Below, piece after piece: positions 1 through 32,704 of a stretch of DNA of 33,676 nucleotides (positions are counted from its first letter, which is position 1; each line of letters opens with the position of its first letter). The position numbers were made by a program, and so were the translations under genes. The stretch is from a virus. The stretch is from positions 1 through 33,676 of IMG/VR virus record IMGVR_UViG_3300025132_000148. One strand, written 5' to 3'. The notes under the pieces were generated by a model. The model was not told the origin of the DNA and did no database searches. It saw nothing but the letters and a program-made list of their open reading frames with translations.

Positions 1-473
1 TCGGAAATAGCAGGTGTAAGAGCAAGAGAATCCCAGATAAAAAGCATCCGATTTTCATTATTAGCCAAAAGGTCTTCGATAGTTTCGAGCACAAACTCAA
101 CAGACTGAGCTTGAACATATAAAAGAGTACTGACATCGCATCCTGCCTTTTCCAAAAACGCAGGGTCAATAGCTGACTCAGAGTCGAAATAGACAACATC
201 AATTCCCTTTTGCTGTGCACTTGCTGCGACTTGCGCTGCCAAGAATGACTTACCTGTTGCTTCAAGACCTGCAATCTCCGTTACTTTGCCGACTGGAATA
301 CCAGCCAACTTTCCTTTACAAATAATAGAATCTAGCCACCTAGATCCTGTAGGAATCCAATCCGTAACTTCGGTTGGGTTTTCCTCGTTTAGGTTGTGTG
401 CCACAGTCATGCCCGCTCGCTTATTAATCAGCTTACGCATATCAGCCATGGACAGTTTACCGGCTTTTGCCAT
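1..473 (-). CDS. uvsX: UvsX/RecA-like recombinase, N-terminal part (runs off the window)
   Basis: This is the first 157 codons of a RecA/UvsX-family strand-exchange ATPase; the 3' end lies outside the window. I see a Walker A motif GLEATGKS at about residues 62-69, a 'VVYFDSE' strand typical of the RecA core, and 'LFIWDSLAL' near the edge, which matches the RecA Walker B region. The family loads on ssDNA coated with gp32-like SSB and drives recombination-dependent replication. The start ATG (471-473) is supported by an AAGGAG site 6 bases upstream. It follows gp32 directly, but the gp32 terminator hairpin sits just before its ribosome binding site, so its transcription probably depends on read-through. 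RecA and UvsX proper cannot be separated on this fragment; the T4-like context favours UvsX. Confidence 0.9.
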   Translation of the reverse strand, partial: MAKAGKLSMADMRKLINKRAGMTVAHNLNEENPTEVTDWIPTGSRWLDSIICKGKLAGIPVGKVTEIAGLEATGKSFLAAQVAASAQQKGIDVVYFDSESAIDPAFLEKAGCDVSTLLYVQAQSVEFVLETIEDLLANNENRMLFIWDSLALTPAIS

Positions 474-518: not shown

Positions 519-1259
519 TTACAGCAACTCGTTAAGAGCCGCCTGTACATCGTTGGATGGAGCAGTGTACTTGCTGGTTTCTTCCGAATTTGCTTCGGCG
601 TCCAGATCAGCATTCATGGCTTCATCCAAGATTCCAGCAACTTCTTCGCTGGTTTTGCGCTCAAAAAGAGTGTCAAAATCAGGAACATTGCTGATCAACT
701 CTTGACAATCTGCGTCTTCGTCTTCGCAAAGAAGAGACGACTTACGGCGGGGTGTCAAAGAGGTTTTCGGGTAAAGCATACCCGGATCTTTAGCATACTT
801 CAGAACAAGGTCAACACCCTCGTCTGCATCAGTAATATCTCCGAAGTCTGGATTGAGTACGAGGCTTAGGAGTTCTTGATACACTGTTTTGCTGTATCCC
901 CAGACTCGAACCCCTGCTTTCTCTTCTCCTCGGACAAGGACGGGGGAGAAGAATCGTTGGCGAGCAAATAACTTCTTTGCCATATTGATGCTCTCTGTAT
1001 CTCCTTGATTAAATAATTTTGTGGCAAAATCACACACAGGGCAGTCGTCACCAAAATTACGCTTCGGGCAAAGGAAGCCGTTCTGCTTACCGACATTGTA
1101 GTGGAAGTGGTACTCCTTAAAGGGGTCGCCATCCTCCGATGGTAGAATTCGAACCGTATGCTCTCCCTCTGTTAGTTTCCAAAAATCAGATTTGCCGCCC
1201 TTTCCATTGTTTTGAGCAGCCGTCAATTTTGCTTTCATTTTCTTAAGATCGATTCCCAT
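519..1259 (-). CDS. 32: gp32-like single-stranded DNA-binding protein
   Basis: A 246-aa protein matching T4 gp32 in architecture: a basic N-terminus (residues 1-25, Lys-rich) for cooperative binding, an OB-fold core, and an acidic C-terminal tail (from about residue 205) for recruiting partner proteins. A zinc site is visible: a His near residue 53 (in FHYNVGK), then C64, C73 and C76 (LCP...DDCPVC), the His-Cys-Cys-Cys pattern of gp32. It coats ssDNA and organises replication and recombination. T4 gp32 is 301 aa, so this one is shorter. The start has an AAAGGAGAA site. The gene has its own sigma70-like promoter and its own terminator, consistent with high expression. Confidence 0.9.
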   Translation of the reverse strand: MGIDLKKMKAKLTAAQNNGKGGKSDFWKLTEGEHTVRILPSEDGDPFKEYHFHYNVGKQNGFLCPKRNFGDDCPVCDFATKLFNQGDTESINMAKKLFARQRFFSPVLVRGEEKAGVRVWGYSKTVYQELLSLVLNPDFGDITDADEGVDLVLKYAKDPGMLYPKTSLTPRRKSSLLCEDEDADCQELISNVPDFDTLFERKTSEEVAGILDEAMNADLDAEANSEETSKYTAPSNDVQAALNELL

Positions 1260-1329: not shown

Positions 1330-2172
1330 TTATTGTATCTGATTGCTTCTCGCAACAAAATAAGCGTATTTCTGCTCGTAATTGGTAAGAAAGACCCCAT
1401 AAGACACATTTGCATCTTCCATTTGTGGTTTTTCTAAAATTTGCTCTTTAATGTTGCTTAAGAGCTTCTTATCAGTCCTTAGTTGTTCTTCGGGGATTGC
1501 ATAATAATATGATTTTTCGCTTAAGTTATTCAAGTCAAAAAACGGATTCTCCTCTCCCGAATCTGGGTTTAAAATGCCAAAGGTTGCCAATCTAGTTGTT
1601 TCGTTTGGTTTGGAAAAAGTTCCGATGACTTTCTTTTGATTTTTAAAAACATTTATCATGTGAATGGTTGACACAAGAACTTCATTCAAAAAATCATGAT
1701 AACCCATGATGGGGGCTCCGTCAATAATCTTATCTAACAATGCATTGTCGGCAATATACATGTTTTGAAAAACACCTGAGCGGGTGTATTCTTGCAACAC
1801 ATTAAAACAAGTCCTTTCCTGAAGGGTTCTTAATTCGGATAAAGAACTCATGTCTGGTCTAATATAGAGAATGTTTATCTTGGATTTCTTGTGAAGATAT
1901 TCCAGAACTCTTAGTGCTGCTCCAGAAATAATTGACGCACCCGAGACAACGAACAATGATTCGCCCTCTATGTTATTAAATCTTTTGGATAAATCTGGTA
2001 CGCTCTTTTCGTATTCCTCGGGGTGGTCGCACTCTGGTAGTTCAATAAACCTAGAGTTTCCAATTTCCTCTGGCAACTCACAGTCGATTGTGTACCCGTT
2101 ATATTCAGGGTATTGTAAAAACTTATTCACAATATTGTGCCCTACTGAGCCTAGTCCTACTATTGTATACAT
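1330..2172 (-). CDS. Divergent FtsZ/tubulin-like protein (putative)
   Basis: A 280-aa protein. The N-terminus VGLGSVGHNIVNKF (5-18) resembles the FtsZ/tubulin T1 glycine loop. 'LFVVSGASIISGAALRVLEYL' is in the place of the FtsZ strand plus GGGTGTGAAP signature loop (about 73-93), but the glycines and threonines are largely lost. 'LYIRPDMS' (102-109), 'NVLQEYTRSGVFQNMYIADNALL' (124-146) and 'FLNEVLVSTIHMI' (161-173) follow in the same order and spacing as the FtsZ H6, T6 (NDKLL) and H7/T7 (AANDVLKGAVQ) segments. The gene overlaps the polymerase by 13 bases, so translation is probably coupled, and it precedes the gp32 promoter. The alternative is a Rossmann nucleotide-binding protein, since GLGSVG alone fits both. 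The family assignment is my inference from motif order. Confidence 0.5.
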   Translation of the reverse strand: MYTIVGLGSVGHNIVNKFLQYPEYNGYTIDCELPEEIGNSRFIELPECDHPEEYEKSVPDLSKRFNNIEGESLFVVSGASIISGAALRVLEYLHKKSKINILYIRPDMSSLSELRTLQERTCFNVLQEYTRSGVFQNMYIADNALLDKIIDGAPIMGYHDFLNEVLVSTIHMINVFKNQKKVIGTFSKPNETTRLATFGILNPDSGEENPFFDLNNLSEKSYYYAIPEEQLRTDKKLLSNIKEQILEKPQMEDANVSYGVFLTNYEQKYAYFVARSNQIQ

Positions 2173-3350
2173 AATTCTTTCATTTCTCCGAAGTTCTTTC
2201 CTGCCGACACATTTACTTTGAATGCGCCAAAGGGTGTATTTGAGAACTCTTTGACCAACATGTTTATCACACTTAGGTCTTTTTTGTCAAGGTCTAAAAC
2301 GATACTGTCATGAATAACAAATGCAATGTTTGATTTTAAATCTTGCAGAGCCTCTTTTATCAAGAAAGCCCTGTCCATAATCAAATCACTACATGTGCTT
2401 TGGATGATATAGTTTAGCGAGTGGTACTCATCACTTTCTATTTCTCTTTTGTAATAGTTTTTTACGGACTTACCGTCCCAATATTTATTCATTACCTTCT
2501 TTCTGTCATAGTGCTTGTCTAAGGCTTTGTCCTTGGAATTAGGATTATAAAGCCATGAAAAGATATTCTTCTTTGCCTGCTCTCTACCAACACTTCCCTC
2601 GTAGAGATTCTTAATGTTCCAGTCATGAATGTCTTCATCTGGTTGGGACATATCAAGTAGTCCGATCAGAACCCTTAGTTCGGCCGCATTATAATCCAAC
2701 TCCACAAACATGTCGTTGTTTGGCTGGAGAACTTTGCGAAACCTTTTGTCCATAGTGAGTATGGGAAATGAATTCTTTCTGGTTGTGAGCCTGCCCGTCT
2801 TTGTGCCATATGGATTGTAGTTTACATATGGGGTGGCTGCTTTGAATCTCTTGAAGAACTCCCTTGTTCTTGGATTCTCGAAAGATTCCTTGAGCGGATC
2901 TAGGTCTACATTTAGTCTTTGGTTAGATATTTCTGTGGTGATAGATACGATTTTCTGTTGTAGTTCATAGTTGTCTGGTCTTTGGTAGTTATCAAAGACA
3001 TGCTGCGTGATCTTGTTTTTAACCTCGCAAAAATCTTTAACGAATTGCTCTGGTAAGAGATCGAAGAAACAGTTCTGATTTAGATCTATCTTAGCAATCC
3101 CAAAAGATTTGTAGAATGCCTGCATCTTTTTCCAAGCCAAGCCAAACTCTTCTTCATGTTGGGGTGGGCAAACTTCTTTTAGGGTCTTGCCTTTGGCGTA
3201 GATCTGGGCAAACTCTATCCCTTTGTTCTGCAAAAATGATGAATATGACCAAGTTTTAGTCAAATTGGGCGGAATGTGGTCGTATACCATTTTGCCATCT
3301 AGGTAAATGCCGACACAATACTGCTTATCATCTAACGCTTGAAATAACAA
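2160..3350 (-). CDS. Family A DNA polymerase, polymerase domain only
   Basis: A 396-aa family A (Pol I-type) polymerase. I see TGRLTT (185-190), motif A LDYNAAELR with catalytic D219 and E224, motif B REQAKKNIFSWLY (256-268; Pol I has R...K...F..YG), LNYIIQSTCSDLI (312-324, the Pol I LNYPIQGTAAD helix), and motif C IHDSIVLD with H347-D348. The palm and fingers begin only near residue 175. There is no room for a 3'-5' exonuclease domain, and no DxE exo motif is seen in the first 170 residues. T4 itself uses a family B enzyme. The start is probably TTG (an in-frame stop lies just upstream; AGGATGAG gives the binding site). The gene lies 7 bases after a structural-type gene and overlaps the next gene by 13 bases. 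Confidence 0.88.
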   Translation of the reverse strand: MLFQALDDKQYCVGIYLDGKMVYDHIPPNLTKTWSYSSFLQNKGIEFAQIYAKGKTLKEVCPPQHEEEFGLAWKKMQAFYKSFGIAKIDLNQNCFFDLLPEQFVKDFCEVKNKITQHVFDNYQRPDNYELQQKIVSITTEISNQRLNVDLDPLKESFENPRTREFFKRFKAATPYVNYNPYGTKTGRLTTRKNSFPILTMDKRFRKVLQPNNDMFVELDYNAAELRVLIGLLDMSQPDEDIHDWNIKNLYEGSVGREQAKKNIFSWLYNPNSKDKALDKHYDRKKVMNKYWDGKSVKNYYKREIESDEYHSLNYIIQSTCSDLIMDRAFLIKEALQDLKSNIAFVIHDSIVLDLDKKDLSVINMLVKEFSNTPFGAFKVNVSAGKNFGEMKELCIQ

Positions 3351-3357
3351 ATTATAC

Positions 3358-4536
3358 TCATCCTAATTGAGATTTTACATTGTCATTAATATACTCTAGA
3401 ACCTGAGAATAGTCAAGAGTTTTATACATCTGTCCTATTTTAAACATCTCTTCGGTTAATACACTGTCTGGCAGTAAAGTATTTGTTTCCACCAAGCGGA
3501 TGCGATAATATAGTCGGAGCCAGAAAAGTTCTCCATACTTTTGATCGTAATTTTCAGAACTTATCTTTTCCCTTGGAACTGCGATGTACTCCGCCTGCTC
3601 CAGATCTCGGCAATAATTGGATGTATATTTTTCGTTTTTCTTAATTAAAATGGGAGACAGGGTTGTAAACGCATCGTACATTTGCTTTATGTATACTTTT
3701 AAATTATCAATATCATATTTATGCGTCCTAATATAACAAAGGTCAAATACATTTTCCAAATTTATATCATATTTTGCCATATAAGCTTGCATTGGCTTGG
3801 AATTTAGATTTGCAACAAGGCGCCATGGGGCATTTTGGTCGACTAAAAAACCATATTTCGCAGCGGTTATAGTATAGAATGTATAATTATTGCTTTTCAA
3901 GTACTTTTTAAGCTTCTGATAGTCTAAGGAAAAACTATCTTTTGAAATCTCTATGCACAACCCGGTCGAAGTGGGATTGTAGTATTTTGACATTATCGTG
4001 CCACTCTTTGTTATAGGGGTTTTGCCCTCCAGTGATGGATAAAAATCATTAAAAAACACATCAATAAAATTTTCAATGTTTTGTATTTTTTGATCGTTAT
4101 TTTTGAGTGACAATGAGCTAGCTACAAAAACTTTATATAAAGCGTCCATCTTTTTATTATAAAATATATGCGGAGAGTCCCACGAGGTACAGGCATCCCA
4201 CTTTGTCGTTAGAAAATTATCTTTAATCAATCTAGACGAAGAGGTTGTTTTTATAAATTTCTTCATGTCAGTAAACGCATCTGCCACAAAGTTTAAGCAC
4301 ATTACATTTTTGCTTTTTCTTGATTTAATTTGTTTTAAAAACCTCTCATTGACATGCACAGTGCTGTTTGCAGGGTCAATACGACCATAAAACATACTCT
4401 TGTCGTTGTAGAAGCTGTAAGATGGTATATTTTCAGAATAAAGCTGGTCATAGACTTCTCTAAGCTGAAATGCTGCTTTGGGACTGTTGGCGTTGAGATT
4501 ATCGATCTCTATGCCTCTAAATTTTTCATAAGCCAT
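3358..4536 (-). CDS. Unknown protein, possibly virion-associated
   Basis: A 392-aa protein with no motif I recognise for certain. It is rich in Tyr, Lys, Asn and Phe, with no signal peptide or membrane segment. The block 'APWRLVANLNSKPMQAYM' (about 239-256) looks like a conserved core and recalls uncharacterised structural proteins of marine T4-like phages, but that is from memory and not tested. It starts 11 bases after the hub-like gene with a GGGGG-type binding site, and the polymerase follows within 7 bases. Context alone suggests a tail, baseplate or late protein. It marks the boundary between structural and replication genes with no terminator in between. Confidence 0.6.
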   Translation of the reverse strand: MAYEKFRGIEIDNLNANSPKAAFQLREVYDQLYSENIPSYSFYNDKSMFYGRIDPANSTVHVNERFLKQIKSRKSKNVMCLNFVADAFTDMKKFIKTTSSSRLIKDNFLTTKWDACTSWDSPHIFYNKKMDALYKVFVASSLSLKNNDQKIQNIENFIDVFFNDFYPSLEGKTPITKSGTIMSKYYNPTSTGLCIEISKDSFSLDYQKLKKYLKSNNYTFYTITAAKYGFLVDQNAPWRLVANLNSKPMQAYMAKYDINLENVFDLCYIRTHKYDIDNLKVYIKQMYDAFTTLSPILIKKNEKYTSNYCRDLEQAEYIAVPREKISSENYDQKYGELFWLRLYYRIRLVETNTLLPDSVLTEEMFKIGQMYKTLDYSQVLEYINDNVKSQLG

Positions 4537-6970: not shown

Positions 6971-8119
6971 TTAACCACTTGTTCCACCAGTTTCTCCGCC
7001 GCCACCTAGAGGTGGTGGTCCACCAGTTCCACCAGTTTCTCCGCCGCCACCTAGAGGAGGGGCTGGCGGAGAAGGTGGAGGTGATGGCGCTGGTGGCTTA
7101 TTCCCCGGCTGCGAGGGTTCAGTCGCCGGACCTCCGGCCTGTCCGGGTACGGGAAGTGGAGATGGCGCATCTCCAGCAGGGGCCGTATCATTGGGGTCTG
7201 GCGTAATTATGATGCCGTCGTTTGGGTCCGGCTCGTTGTTATAAAAAACCGAATCTAGACCTGCGTCTGCCAAAATTCCGCCTGCTGCGCCGACGAGGGC
7301 TCCAAATTCTCCCCCTAGTTTTCCGCCTAGCGCTGTGCCGATGTCTTCACCTGTTCCGAGTTCAGGGAAGAGTTCGGCAATGAAGCCTGTGGAGGCTTCG
7401 AAGCCTTGATCATAGTCGTGCAGTACATTAAAGCCCATCCCTATGTCAATCACTTTTGGATATATAAAGTTTCCCTGCTCTCCATCCTCGTATGCGCCGC
7501 CCTCAAAGTTTGGAGTCATTGAACAGTTTGTTAAATATCCAACCAGAAAACCGCCGTCAACTGAGGAGCCGTAACTTTGAAGCAATTGCACATGCTTGAT
7601 TGCAAGAATGGGAGGTGAGGCTATCGTTCTATAGTTTTGAATATTTTTATATGTTGGGTACATCATGTTAGTCAAACTAACTCTTTGCTTTCCACCTCTG
7701 CCCAAAGTCTTGTTGTAATTAAACCTAGCCTCTGCTAAATTTGCCGCCGTTAATTTAAAGTTTATTGTAATGCTTCTGCTTGTATTCTGATATGAAGGAA
7801 TTGGGTCTGCTCTGCCATATACCGGTTCCTGACCCCATCCAACATTGTAGCTGTTTGAGAGAGAAGTCAAATCTGCAAATAGACCGATTTTCTTCTTACT
7901 TGGAACATGCATTATTTTGAGAAGCTGGTCTTTCCTAGCGACTGCCAGATGTGGATCCCAGTATTTTGTACCTGTAATACCCCCGAACTGATCGATTCCC
8001 ATGCCGAGGACTTCTTTTAACCACTCCTCAACAAAATCTCGTCCCCACTCCAAAACTTCGCCCACAGGTTGTTTAAGTGGCTGCGGCAGGTCTGCTATAA
8101 CTCCTTTAAATATTGACAT
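6971..8119 (-). CDS. Putative baseplate-tail tube junction protein with Gly/Pro-rich tail
   Basis: A 382-aa protein. The central domain (about 85-245) contains 'TSRSITINFKL', 'MMYPTYKNIQNYR', 'ASPPILAIKHVQLLQ', a 'FLVGYLTNCSMTPNFEGGAY' stretch and 'YPKVIDIGMGFNVLHDYDQG', matching the type of tube-initiator/tube-cap proteins (T4 gp48/gp54 role) that start tail-tube polymerisation. From about residue 290 the chain turns into a low-complexity Pro/Gly/Asp tail ending in two copies of a 15-residue unit containing PPLGGGGETGGT. It follows the tape measure gene, where such proteins belong, and has a GGAGAT site. The tube-junction role is inference from position and fold pattern; which T4 equivalent it is cannot be settled. 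Confidence 0.5.
   Translation of the reverse strand: MSIFKGVIADLPQPLKQPVGEVLEWGRDFVEEWLKEVLGMGIDQFGGITGTKYWDPHLAVARKDQLLKIMHVPSKKKIGLFADLTSLSNSYNVGWGQEPVYGRADPIPSYQNTSRSITINFKLTAANLAEARFNYNKTLGRGGKQRVSLTNMMYPTYKNIQNYRTIASPPILAIKHVQLLQSYGSSVDGGFLVGYLTNCSMTPNFEGGAYEDGEQGNFIYPKVIDIGMGFNVLHDYDQGFEASTGFIAELFPELGTGEDIGTALGGKLGGEFGALVGAAGGILADAGLDSVFYNNEPDPNDGIIITPDPNDTAPAGDAPSPLPVPGQAGGPATEPSQPGNKPPAPSPPPSPPAPPLGGGGETGGTGGPPPLGGGGETGGTSG
6981..7057. repeat. Tandem repeat encoding the C-terminal tail of the tube-junction protein
   Basis: Two copies of an identical 32-base segment (6981-7012 and 7026-7057) at a period of 45 bases, encoding a 15-aa unit with PPLGGGGETGGT. The period is a multiple of three, so copy-number change keeps the frame. 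Confidence 0.85.
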
Positions 8120-21431: not shown

Positions 21432-23627
21432 TTACTTCTTGAGGGCTTTTTTCAAGTCTTCGATCTGTACTTGTTGTGCTTTAACAGCCTCAACGAGAAC
21501 GGAAGTAAGTCTTGAGTAGTCAACTCCCTGTACTCCATCCTCTGCCACATGGACAGCTTTTGGAAGAACAGCTTGAACATCCTGAGCGATGAAACCGAAG
21601 TCTCTTTCACCGGAATCTTTCCAAGTGAACTCAACACCTTCAAGGGACATGACAGTATCAAGCGCAGTGTTTCTCATAGAAGCAACATCTTGCTTAAGGC
21701 TTTCGTCCGAGTAAGTAACGAATGCAGCAGCACGAACCTTGTTAATGTTATTGGATCCGTTTACAACATCAATAGCATACTCACTAGTGGCGTCACCACC
21801 GATAGTAAGCATGGATGCGTCAGAGCTGTCTTTGAATTGAAGAACATGGTTTGCAGCATCGTAGCGCATGACTTCGTTAGCAGCAGCACCGTGGAATGTA
21901 GCATTAACACCAGCGCCGTCAGCACCAATTGTCAAAGCGCTCTTAACCTGTGCCGTTCCGTCAACTGTGAGGTTTTCGTTCATCTGGAGGCGTCCAGCGT
22001 TAGTGATAGTAAGACCACTTCCACCGCCGTATCCGCCACCTAGAGACATGGAGTCAGCAGTGACACTAGAAGCAACATATACAGATCCGGAGAAAGCAGA
22101 TGTTCCTGAACCGCCGATAATAGCATTTCCGTCGATTTGGAAGTTTCCAGATCCAGACATGTTTCCTGCCAATGCAAGATTAGTTCCATCGAACTGAAGG
22201 TTTGCATTGTCTGCAAGTTCACCAGAGGCGCCAGCGAGAACAAGTCTTCCTTGTGTGAGGTCAGATACCTGAAGGCTAGCGAAAGCTGGGCTGTCGCCAG
22301 TTCCAAGTCCAAGACTTGTTCTAGCAGTGTTTCCGCTTTCGTAAGCGAATGCACCAGCGCCAGTTGCAACGATGAATTCACCGTCAGCAGACGCAGCACC
22401 GAGTGTATCAAGGTCCTCAAGAACACCATCAACTGCAATTGCGATGGATCCACCAAGAGAAACAGCGCCGAGAGAAGCCATACCAGCACCCTGTGTAAGG
22501 GTTACGCTGGAGTTAGCCAATTTGGCGTTTGCAACTGATCCAGCCAAGTGATTGCTTTGAATAGATCCAGTAGCGTAGTTTTCTGCACCAAGAGTACCTT
22601 GTGCAACATGTCCACCTTGGATAGAACCAGATGCGTAGTGCTCTGCGTCGAGTGCACCAAGAACGATGTGCTCGGAATTAACAGAGTCATCAGCAATGTT
22701 GTCACCATCTACAGCGTCACCAGCAAGCATAGCATGCTCAACAGCGCCAACAGCAATAGTCAAAGCACCACCGGCAGCGATTGTAGCATCACCAGAAACA
22801 TTTCCAAAGATAGCATCTTCGAAGTCAGAGAAGGTGATTGACTTAAGGTTGTTGGAGTCATCAACATCACCAGCGTACATCAAGTCACCTTGTGCAAGAT
22901 CACTCAAAGAAGAAGCCAAAGATCCACCGTCAAGCTTGTCCATGTCGATTGCAGCGTTAGCGGCGATAGAAGCGTTAACAACAGCGTTAGCAGCCAACTC
23001 GTCAGCACCAACAGCATCATCAGCAAGCATGCTGTTCTCAACTGCTTGAGCGGCAATAGTCAAAGCACCACCGGCAGCGATTGTAGCATCACCAGAAACA
23101 TCAGCGAATACAGCGTCACGAACAACACTGAAGTCTGCTCTCTTGAGAACTCCGTCATCAGAAATCATGAGTTCATCTGTATCAGCGAGATCTCCAGTCA
23201 TTTCTGTTTGACCAGAAATTGCATTAGTGTTAAGCATAGAACCTTCAACTGCATTTGCTGCAATTGTCAAAGCACCGCCAGCGGCAACAGTTGCGTCACC
23301 AGAGACATCAGCGAAAACTGCGTCCTGAAGGTTGGAGAAGGTGATTTTCTTCTCAGTTCCATTGTCAGAGAACAAGAAGTGATCTTGTGTCTGATGAAGA
23401 GCGGCACTGCCAAGAGCGTCAAAAGCATCGATGTCGATTGCTTTTGCAACATCTGTAACAACGCCACCTTGGTTTTGTAAGTAAAGTCTGGATTCACCAG
23501 CATCGTCTGATGTACCAGAAGCGAAAAGGTAAATACCACCAACTGGTGCATCAGTTGGATCTCCAGAGCCGGAAACATTCTGAAGTTCGATATATTTACC
23601 GTAACTAGATTCAGTAAAGTAAGCCAT
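21432..23627 (-). CDS. Tail fibre-like protein with C-terminal S74 intramolecular chaperone
   Basis: A 731-aa, Ala/Gly/Asp-rich beta-repeat protein. Residues about 75-320 contain at least three copies of a unit with VSGDATIAAGGALTIA followed by AVE/AQAVENSMLADDAV-type text. The middle is low-complexity beta helix-like sequence. The C-terminus (about 630-731) is a Peptidase_S74 (endosialidase chaperone) domain: 'YSDESLKQDVASM', 'LEGVEFTWKD', 'DFGFIAQDVQAVLPKAV' and a final 'LVEAVKAQQVQIEDLKK' coiled coil. Such domains trimerise fibres and then cut themselves off before the Ser of the SD..LK motif. Its place inside the head-gene cluster is unusual. It has a GGAGG site; a motif and a hairpin precede it. 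Confidence 0.85.
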   Translation of the reverse strand: MAYFTESSYGKYIELQNVSGSGDPTDAPVGGIYLFASGTSDDAGESRLYLQNQGGVVTDVAKAIDIDAFDALGSAALHQTQDHFLFSDNGTEKKITFSNLQDAVFADVSGDATVAAGGALTIAANAVEGSMLNTNAISGQTEMTGDLADTDELMISDDGVLKRADFSVVRDAVFADVSGDATIAAGGALTIAAQAVENSMLADDAVGADELAANAVVNASIAANAAIDMDKLDGGSLASSLSDLAQGDLMYAGDVDDSNNLKSITFSDFEDAIFGNVSGDATIAAGGALTIAVGAVEHAMLAGDAVDGDNIADDSVNSEHIVLGALDAEHYASGSIQGGHVAQGTLGAENYATGSIQSNHLAGSVANAKLANSSVTLTQGAGMASLGAVSLGGSIAIAVDGVLEDLDTLGAASADGEFIVATGAGAFAYESGNTARTSLGLGTGDSPAFASLQVSDLTQGRLVLAGASGELADNANLQFDGTNLALAGNMSGSGNFQIDGNAIIGGSGTSAFSGSVYVASSVTADSMSLGGGYGGGSGLTITNAGRLQMNENLTVDGTAQVKSALTIGADGAGVNATFHGAAANEVMRYDAANHVLQFKDSSDASMLTIGGDATSEYAIDVVNGSNNINKVRAAAFVTYSDESLKQDVASMRNTALDTVMSLEGVEFTWKDSGERDFGFIAQDVQAVLPKAVHVAEDGVQGVDYSRLTSVLVEAVKAQQVQIEDLKKALKK
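22753..23315. repeat. Long direct repeats in the fibre gene
   Basis: A 48-base perfect repeat, 22753-22800 and 23053-23100, spaced exactly 300 bases apart, and a third diverged copy at about 23261-23315. They encode the VSGDATIAAGGALTIA unit. The spacing keeps the reading frame, so recombination between copies would remove or add 100 aa. Confidence 0.85.
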
Positions 23628-31792: not shown

Positions 31793-32704
31793 CTATTTAT
31801 CTAGTTTTTCAATTAAAAGATCAAGTTTCTTTTCTAAATTGGCTATTTTTTTGTCTTGAGCCTTGGCCCCTTCGACCAAAAATGAAATGATGCGGATGTA
31901 GTCCATACTGTTTGCATATTCCGGATCTTGGGACCACTCCACGATCTCTGGTAGGACTTTTCCTACCTCTTCTGCAATAAATCCATAATCTATTTTTCCT
32001 GTGTCTTTCCACTTGTAAGAAACGCCGTTGAGTCTTTTAAGTGTTTCAATGGGGTTTTTTAATGGCTTTACCTCTTCTTTGAAACGGATTGAGGAGTAGG
32101 AGAGAAAAGCGTTTGCCTTAACTTGTCCGTCTGGACCGCTGCTGTCTGGTAATGTTATTGCGTGAGTTGCGGAGCAATCGCCCACAGCCAAATATTTAGC
32201 CACATGAACGCAAGAGCCCGACAAGACGAGCCCCCTGTGTTCCGACCCTGAAACAATCAGCGCCCCGTTTCCGCCGTCTTCGTAGTATATTTTCGCTTCG
32301 TTATTTGGTCCGAAGTTAAAGGCGGCTGCATCTCCTGTGGATACAAACTGTAGTTCACCGCCGATCTTTAGAGGAGAGGCACCTTCTAGGGTTCCCGCTA
32401 TCTGAATTGTTGAGCCCGAGAGGACAATGCCATTAGATGAACCTGATATTACTAAAAAATCGTCTTGATTTTCATTGTATTCTATGTGAGCATCGTCATT
32501 GGTGCCAAACTTTATTTTTGTGTCATCTGCAACTTTTAAATCAGTGCCGTCAAAAGTGAAGGTAGATATGCCTGCGAAAGAGCCGCCGTTATTGTATTGA
32601 AGGTGGGTGTTGGAGCCGCCCGGAGTGGTCAGGTCGTCTGTTTCAGGCGCAGTGCTTTTTATTATGGAGACCAATTTTCCATGACTATATTTACCTATTG
32701 CCAT
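31793..32704 (-). CDS. Fibre-like protein with C-terminal S74 chaperone
   Basis: A 303-aa protein. Residues 30-185 are repeated beta strands of the fibre type ('HLQYNNGGSFAGISTFTFDG', 'DDFLVISGSSNGIVLSGST', 'GALIVSGSEHRGLVLSGS'), with the ISGS..G.VLSGS unit occurring twice. The C-terminus (about 195-303) is an S74 domain: 'YSSIRFKEEVKPL', 'LNGVSYKWKDTGKIDYGFIA', 'EEVGKVLPEIVEW' and a final coiled coil. The Ser and Lys of the self-cleavage motif are kept, but the usual Asp after the Ser is absent. It is a second S74 gene in the window, and much smaller than the one at 21.4 kb. Its start overlaps the stop of the preceding gene (TAATG). Confidence 0.85.
   Translation of the reverse strand: MAIGKYSHGKLVSIIKSTAPETDDLTTPGGSNTHLQYNNGGSFAGISTFTFDGTDLKVADDTKIKFGTNDDAHIEYNENQDDFLVISGSSNGIVLSGSTIQIAGTLEGASPLKIGGELQFVSTGDAAAFNFGPNNEAKIYYEDGGNGALIVSGSEHRGLVLSGSCVHVAKYLAVGDCSATHAITLPDSSGPDGQVKANAFLSYSSIRFKEEVKPLKNPIETLKRLNGVSYKWKDTGKIDYGFIAEEVGKVLPEIVEWSQDPEYANSMDYIRIISFLVEGAKAQDKKIANLEKKLDLLIEKLDK

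Follow-up and report, generated by a model that had tools for sequence, protein, structure and literature searches.

The window, that is, the whole stretch of DNA analysed (33,676 nucleotides, IMG/VR virus record IMGVR_UViG_3300025132_000148), carries near its first letters a DNA replication module in which an ORF for a protein of predicted tubulin fold, hereafter TUB, is placed between the gene of a family-A DNA polymerase and that of a gp32-like single-strand DNA-binding protein (SSB), the latter being followed by a UvsX/RecA-like recombinase gene (Table 1). The boundaries of the ORF, 1330-2172 on the minus strand, are exactly those claimed in the original prediction, which described a degenerate FtsZ/tubulin-like protein translationally coupled to a phage polymerase. 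In the polymerase itself (2160-3350) the polymerase domain alone was recognised, an exonuclease domain not being detected. The coupling arrangement was found as described, with the TUB start lying inside the end of the polymerase gene (13-nt overlap), and 57 of the 108 loci that were selected through TUB and show all three genes have an overlap of this kind (-13 to -1 nt). Such tight coupling is not universal, since in 36/108 loci a 105-aa ORF, beginning near KLVRDRIPEII, intervenes between polymerase and TUB. This intervening ORF of about 105 aa is conserved, with a start near KLVRDRIPEIIE (examples L026, L031 and L055), and we take it to be reminiscent of MazG-like NTP pyrophosphohydrolases; a Pfam search of one example returned no match.

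Table 1. Features of the TUB locus and of the TUB protein (window coordinates)
Feature	Residues	Coordinates	Strand	Basis
UvsX/RecA-like recombinase, truncated by the window end		3..473	-	PF00154 2.2e-19; phrog_97 9.1e-31
gp32-like single-strand DNA-binding protein, downstream of TUB		519..1259	-	PF08804 1.1e-13; phrog_1192 2.6e-29
TUB (tubulin-fold protein, predicted), 280 aa	1-280	1330..2172	-	ORF with ATG start
Polymerase stop/TUB start overlap, 13 nt		2160..2172	-	coordinates
Family-A DNA polymerase, 396 aa, upstream of TUB		2160..3350	-	PF00476 2.3e-14; phrog_17
T1 glycine-rich loop GLGSVGHN	6-13	2134..2157	-	family form GLGxAGCN; profile comparison aligns it with FtsZ T1
T4-loop equivalent SGASIISG	77-84	1921..1944	-	motif tally
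QEYxRSG family hallmark, end of H5	127-133	1774..1794	-	conservation in 212 relatives
T6 equivalent, including N143	139-144	1741..1758	-	N143 pairs with N165 of IPND in E. coli FtsZ
Central helix H7, including aromatic/His 159 and N163	158-177	1642..1701	-	helix in model
T7-loop/H8 replacement region	178-194	1591..1641	-	DSSP of model
C-terminal domain, four main strands	195-280	1333..1590	-	DSSP of model

The remainder of the window contains head and tail genes that match T4-type PHROGs, in agreement with the T4-like phage that had been proposed; these comprise TerL (phrog_2), portal (phrog_213), protease (phrog_207), major head protein (phrog_138), sheath (phrog_23) and baseplate hub (phrog_150). 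The closest terminases of cultured phages are those of Flavobacterium phage immuto (43%) and Microcystis phage Mel-JY01 (44%). On the other side of the polymerase, the ORF at 3358-4536 (-) encodes a protein of 392 aa, not clearly assignable to any family, that is conserved beside the polymerase in this lineage. It was considered as a replication partner and set aside, its model (pLDDT 90.8) being weakly like VanY/LdcB carboxypeptidases (Z 7.7); since an annotated carboxypeptidase of phage immuto is also found near the end of the tail genes, this ORF probably ends the virion module. A Peptidase_S74 endosialidase-chaperone domain is present near the C-terminus of two window proteins (21432-23627, 31793-32704 (-)), and the 382-aa protein encoded at 6971-8119 (-) has C-terminal Pro/Gly-rich repeats (PAPSPPPSPPAPPLGGGGETGGTGG).

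At the sequence level the likeness of TUB to known families is faint. The window protein alone gave no match in Pfam, PHROG or PDB sequences. The Pfam Tubulin family (PF00091) had no match in the window and was weakly matched by 3 of 41 TUB relatives (best E 0.058), while the NCBIfam FtsZ model TIGR00065 did not match the window protein and was weakly matched by 5/41 relatives (best E 0.0018); neither curated cut-off was reached. TrkA_N matches 15 of the 41 members (best 8.8e-6), and a search of PDB sequences with the TUB profile placed KtrA on top, together with two chance rows. Both results are what would be seen if TUB were simply a Rossmann-type protein, binding NAD or a nucleotide, in which FtsZ-like words had arisen by chance; the KtrA match, however, is limited to the first 40 residues, which correspond to the T1-like segment, and the predicted structure points elsewhere. 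The AlphaFold2 model, obtained from an alignment of 41 TUB sequences and without templates, has a pLDDT of 90.4 and a pTM of 0.90 (89.5-90.4 for pLDDT over the five models), and shows an N-terminal nucleotide-binding domain, then the central helix H7, then a C-terminal domain; because of these last two elements it is not the plain Rossmann domain that would have refuted the original prediction. In a Foldseek search of the PDB, FtsZ and TubZ fill the first 50 matches listed (best E 1.1e-12). With VIA-align, matches were obtained to CetZ (Z 24.9, 258 residues), TubZ (24.0, 272 residues), FtsZ (22.6, 269 residues) and tubulin (21.6, 265 residues), the superpositions on tubulin-family chains covering 258-276 residues and spanning model residues 1-280. 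Among viral predicted structures (BFVD), the top match bears the name 'FtsZ' (TMq 0.80), and below it come two phage proteins named tubulin or tubulin-like. The structure prediction and fold searches thus bear out the divergent FtsZ/tubulin member originally proposed: judging from the model, TUB almost certainly belongs, as a very divergent protein, to the tubulin/FtsZ superfamily, and a mere Rossmann protein appears extremely improbable.

The motifs on which the original prediction was built are all present in TUB (GLGSVGHN, residues 6-13; SGASIISGAAL, 77-87; YIRPD, 103-107; MYIADNALL, 138-146; FLNEVLVSTI, 161-170), but the FtsZ spacing attributed to them does not hold everywhere, since the S2-S4 region is shorter and a helix H8 is not predicted. 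In addition, the GGGTGTG found at residues 105-111 of E. coli FtsZ exceeds the T4 loop of TUB by about two residues. In the T1 loop, the glycines G6, G8 and G11 are kept in 96-98% of 212 TUB relatives. A motif tally showed that the GGGTG[TS]G signature of T4, as defined in PMC12583498, is absent across the family and is replaced by the form xG[SA]Gx[IV][SA]G, which is carried by most relatives; the SGASIISG of the window protein is a sub-clade feature.

Evidence on the nucleotide pocket comes from the comparison of the profile of the 212 TUB relatives with that of FtsZ, which extends over 270 columns with a probability of 48% and, as a single comparison, an E of 1.9e-4. In this weak alignment N143 is paired with E. 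coli N165 and N163 with N186, which lies four residues after F182, the position aligned to TUB residue 159 (F, Y, H or W in 197/212 relatives). The same two asparagines were aligned when TUB was compared with a second phage FtsZ-like family, described below. Each of them is present in 208 of the 212 relatives (98%), and they are the only asparagines conserved in at least 95% of these sequences. From FtsZ and tubulin structures, we take the N165 and N186 positions to be guanine contacts, and the pocket residues indicate that TUB probably binds a guanine nucleotide, GTP or GDP, in the usual pocket. The weakened GTP-binding signature initially noted, which had been taken to suggest loss of GTPase or a new partner-binding role, is to be qualified: GTPase motifs are indeed absent family-wide, yet the conservation of N143 and N163 does not suggest that the family has lost nucleotide binding, and the unusual SGASIISG is confined to a sub-clade. 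Two candidate likenesses were discarded. HMINVFKN, paired with NVDFAD of the T7 loop in the profile comparison, is placed by the model inside H7, and a match to a 'GTP-binding domain' of Vibrio phage PWH3a-P1 was short and, with E = 4, attributed to chance.

Several elements of the tubulin plan appear to have been lost. The NxDxx[DE] catalytic motif of T7 is absent at TUB residues 178-194 and across the family. H8 is considered absent because, in the model, H7 is followed by a strand without an intervening helix, and H11 because the model stops at Gln280, a C-terminal residue found in 200/212 relatives, directly after the last strand (S10). In known members of the superfamily the T7 motif, H8 and H11 are used for longitudinal contacts and hydrolysis (PMC12583498, PMC3678025), and H11 is present in phage and plasmid TubZ (PMC3678025). 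An acidic residue at position 188 or 191, near the expected position of the T7 acid, is kept in 173/212 relatives, so that a relocated catalytic acid is possible. The most conserved positions of the family are Q127 and R131, both invariant, and S132 (209/212), at the end of H5. We know of no counterpart of these three residues, and they may constitute a partner surface.

These data bear on whether TUB is a cytomotive tubulin, whose GTP-dependent filaments would position or segregate phage DNA as PhuZ and TubZ do, with an unusual catalytic loop. The whole-length match to TubZ and CetZ, the conserved pocket asparagines and the acid at 188 or 191 are consistent with such a role, and the PhuZ sequence is likewise very divergent; however, the model lacks NxDxx[DE], H8 and H11, on which longitudinal contacts and hydrolysis depend elsewhere, and this makes a fast-hydrolysing filament of the PhuZ/TubZ type less likely. 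Moreover, a separate and more canonical FtsZ-like protein present in some relatives could do the filament job. This second family was identified on the 165,872-base contig of L132 (L311:887-1981 (-), 364 aa; relatives L312-L391); its T4 loop, GGGGGTGSA, is canonical, it carries a T7-like FDSKDLE, and it matches Pfam Tubulin (3.1e-6), TIGR00065 (9.5e-8) and, in the profile comparison, FtsZ (prob 97%). It comprises at least 107 IMG/VR relatives, was not found in cultured phages, and co-occurs with TUB on 5 of the 16 contigs that carry it. We consider a cytomotive role unlikely, and it is somewhat doubtful that TUB forms ordinary protofilaments at all.

Relatives of TUB are abundant in IMG/VR, where 64 were retrieved by single-sequence search and at least 594 by alignment search; none was found among 50,697 records of cultured or named phages, no PHROG matched the family, and a description of it was not found in the open-licence full-text literature. 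On 16 contigs with lengths of 102-204 kb, the gene occurs once per contig. A match in a WOR-3 MAG (L133, CP070664.1) is not taken as a host link, as the phage-like replication-module stretch is flanked by N-runs and is likely mis-scaffolded phage sequence. The dN/dS is 0.02-0.03 between the window and its near relatives and up to 0.05 among relatives, values that are approximate because dS is near saturation; TUB is under strong constraint. The number of relatives, these low ratios and the predicted whole-length tubulin fold show that the ORF is not a chance one, and the family is a previously unlisted one that combines a tubulin fold without the family signatures with a new genomic setting.

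This setting is remarkably constant. Polymerase, TUB and gp32 follow each other in this order on one strand in all 108 TUB-selected loci showing the three genes. In loci found through the polymerase or the SSB, fetched without TUB as bait and comprising the best 80 matches per query, some of which share a contig, TUB lies between both genes on the same strand in all 94 cases that show the two (77 distinct TUB sequences), which brings the total to 202/202 loci displaying a polymerase together with a gp32-like SSB; since the queries came from this lineage and the best 80 matches were taken for each, the invariant placement is stated for this lineage. The order TUB-gp32-RecA is similarly kept in 107/107 loci showing gp32 and RecA. 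TUB is thus an invariable member of the replication module in an uncultured T4-related lineage with a family-A polymerase. Phages immuto and Mel-JY01 share with these loci a related family-A polymerase, a gp32-like SSB and a RecA close by, in the same order, but their cluster has no tubulin, which indicates that the replication module can work without TUB. In Mel-JY01, the ORF directly before gp32 (L152:4714-6000) encodes an S-adenosylmethionine-lyase-like domain (PF23780, 4.4e-10).

Genomic placement and constraint also weigh on the proposal that TUB mimics host FtsZ, capping or poisoning the division ring during infection. An FtsZ-like fold devoid of its polymerising parts could suit capping, and phage inhibitors of FtsZ exist, namely lambda Kil (PMC3961180) and T7 Gp0.4, which acts on FtsZ (PMC13423816). 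Host-takeover genes, however, tend to be early and variable, whereas TUB is strongly constrained and keeps its place between polymerase and SSB throughout the loci covered, and we regard a division-ring mimic as quite improbable.

Synteny alone does not establish a physical contact between TUB and the replisome. The placement between polymerase and SSB nevertheless suggests that a tubulin-like protein has been built into viral DNA copying, and a role of TUB in replication, or in the organisation of replication centres, seems reasonably likely. With similar, moderate confidence we favour as a whole a divergent tubulin whose role in the replication module is that of a nucleotide-gated scaffold or oligomer rather than that of a classical GTPase filament. 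According to this proposal, TUB would be made in step with the polymerase through translational coupling, would bind guanine nucleotide in the pocket described above, and would self-associate or dock partners through its altered longitudinal faces; as a nucleotide-gated scaffold it could then hold or position the polymerase, the SSB and UvsX. A stronger version, which we put forward only tentatively, is that TUB is an obligatory guanine-nucleotide-binding component of the replisome, produced in step with the DNA polymerase, that no longer forms classical filaments and would define a tubulin class outside the cytoskeleton.

The phage tubulins described in the literature surveyed belong to nucleus-forming jumbo phages or to TubZ partition systems, where their task is to position DNA or capsids. 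TUB instead counts among the core genes of a broad T4-related lineage, uncultured and of normal genome size, and is wired into the replication operon. To our knowledge there is no earlier case of a tubulin as a replisome part; if TUB works with the polymerase and the SSB, it would be the first, and the way in which a cytoskeletal fold can serve DNA replication would become testable. If, on the other hand, TUB is a filament, the intracellular organisation of phages by tubulins would extend far beyond the jumbo phages. In either case, hundreds of natural TUB sequences are available in which the T4, T7 and H8 elements have been lost and the pocket asparagines kept.

Comparison with the known tubulin-family systems shows both shared and differing features. 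Its best viral structural match, A0A6J5RW92 of an uncultured Caudovirales phage ('FtsZ Cell division GTPase', BFVD), is a protein of 452 aa, against the 280 aa of TUB, and is 11% identical. With FtsZ (PDB 2r6r, 1ofu and 4dxd; Foldseek E 1e-12, Z about 22) the T1, T6 and H7 pocket positions align, whereas T4 is shortened and rewritten in TUB, the T7-H8 segment is replaced and the match remains below the FtsZ family cut-off. PhuZ of the phiKZ-like jumbo phages (phrog_4733) is also phage-encoded and has a short T1 of similar style (CGGAGFRIGELF), but the profile match of TUB is confined to the T1 loop and phrog_4733 is not among the matched families; PhuZ has H11 (PMC3678025), while the TUB model ends after S10, and in phiKZ the PhuZ gene is not adjacent to the SSB gene. 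TubZ of Bacillus plasmids (PDB 2xka and 4ei7; Z 24.0 over 272 residues) is likewise a mobile-element tubulin, from which TUB differs by the lack of the H11 tail and of the signature motifs; type III partition consists of TubZ, TubR and a centromere site, whereas the neighbours of TUB are a polymerase and an SSB, and no TubR-like gene is annotated beside it. The best structural match of all is the archaeal CetZ (PDB 3zid and 4b45; Z 24.9 over 258 residues, 13% identity), compared with which TUB is devoid of the GGGTG[TS]G T4, the NxDxx[DE] T7 and H8, and is a phage gene residing in a replication module.
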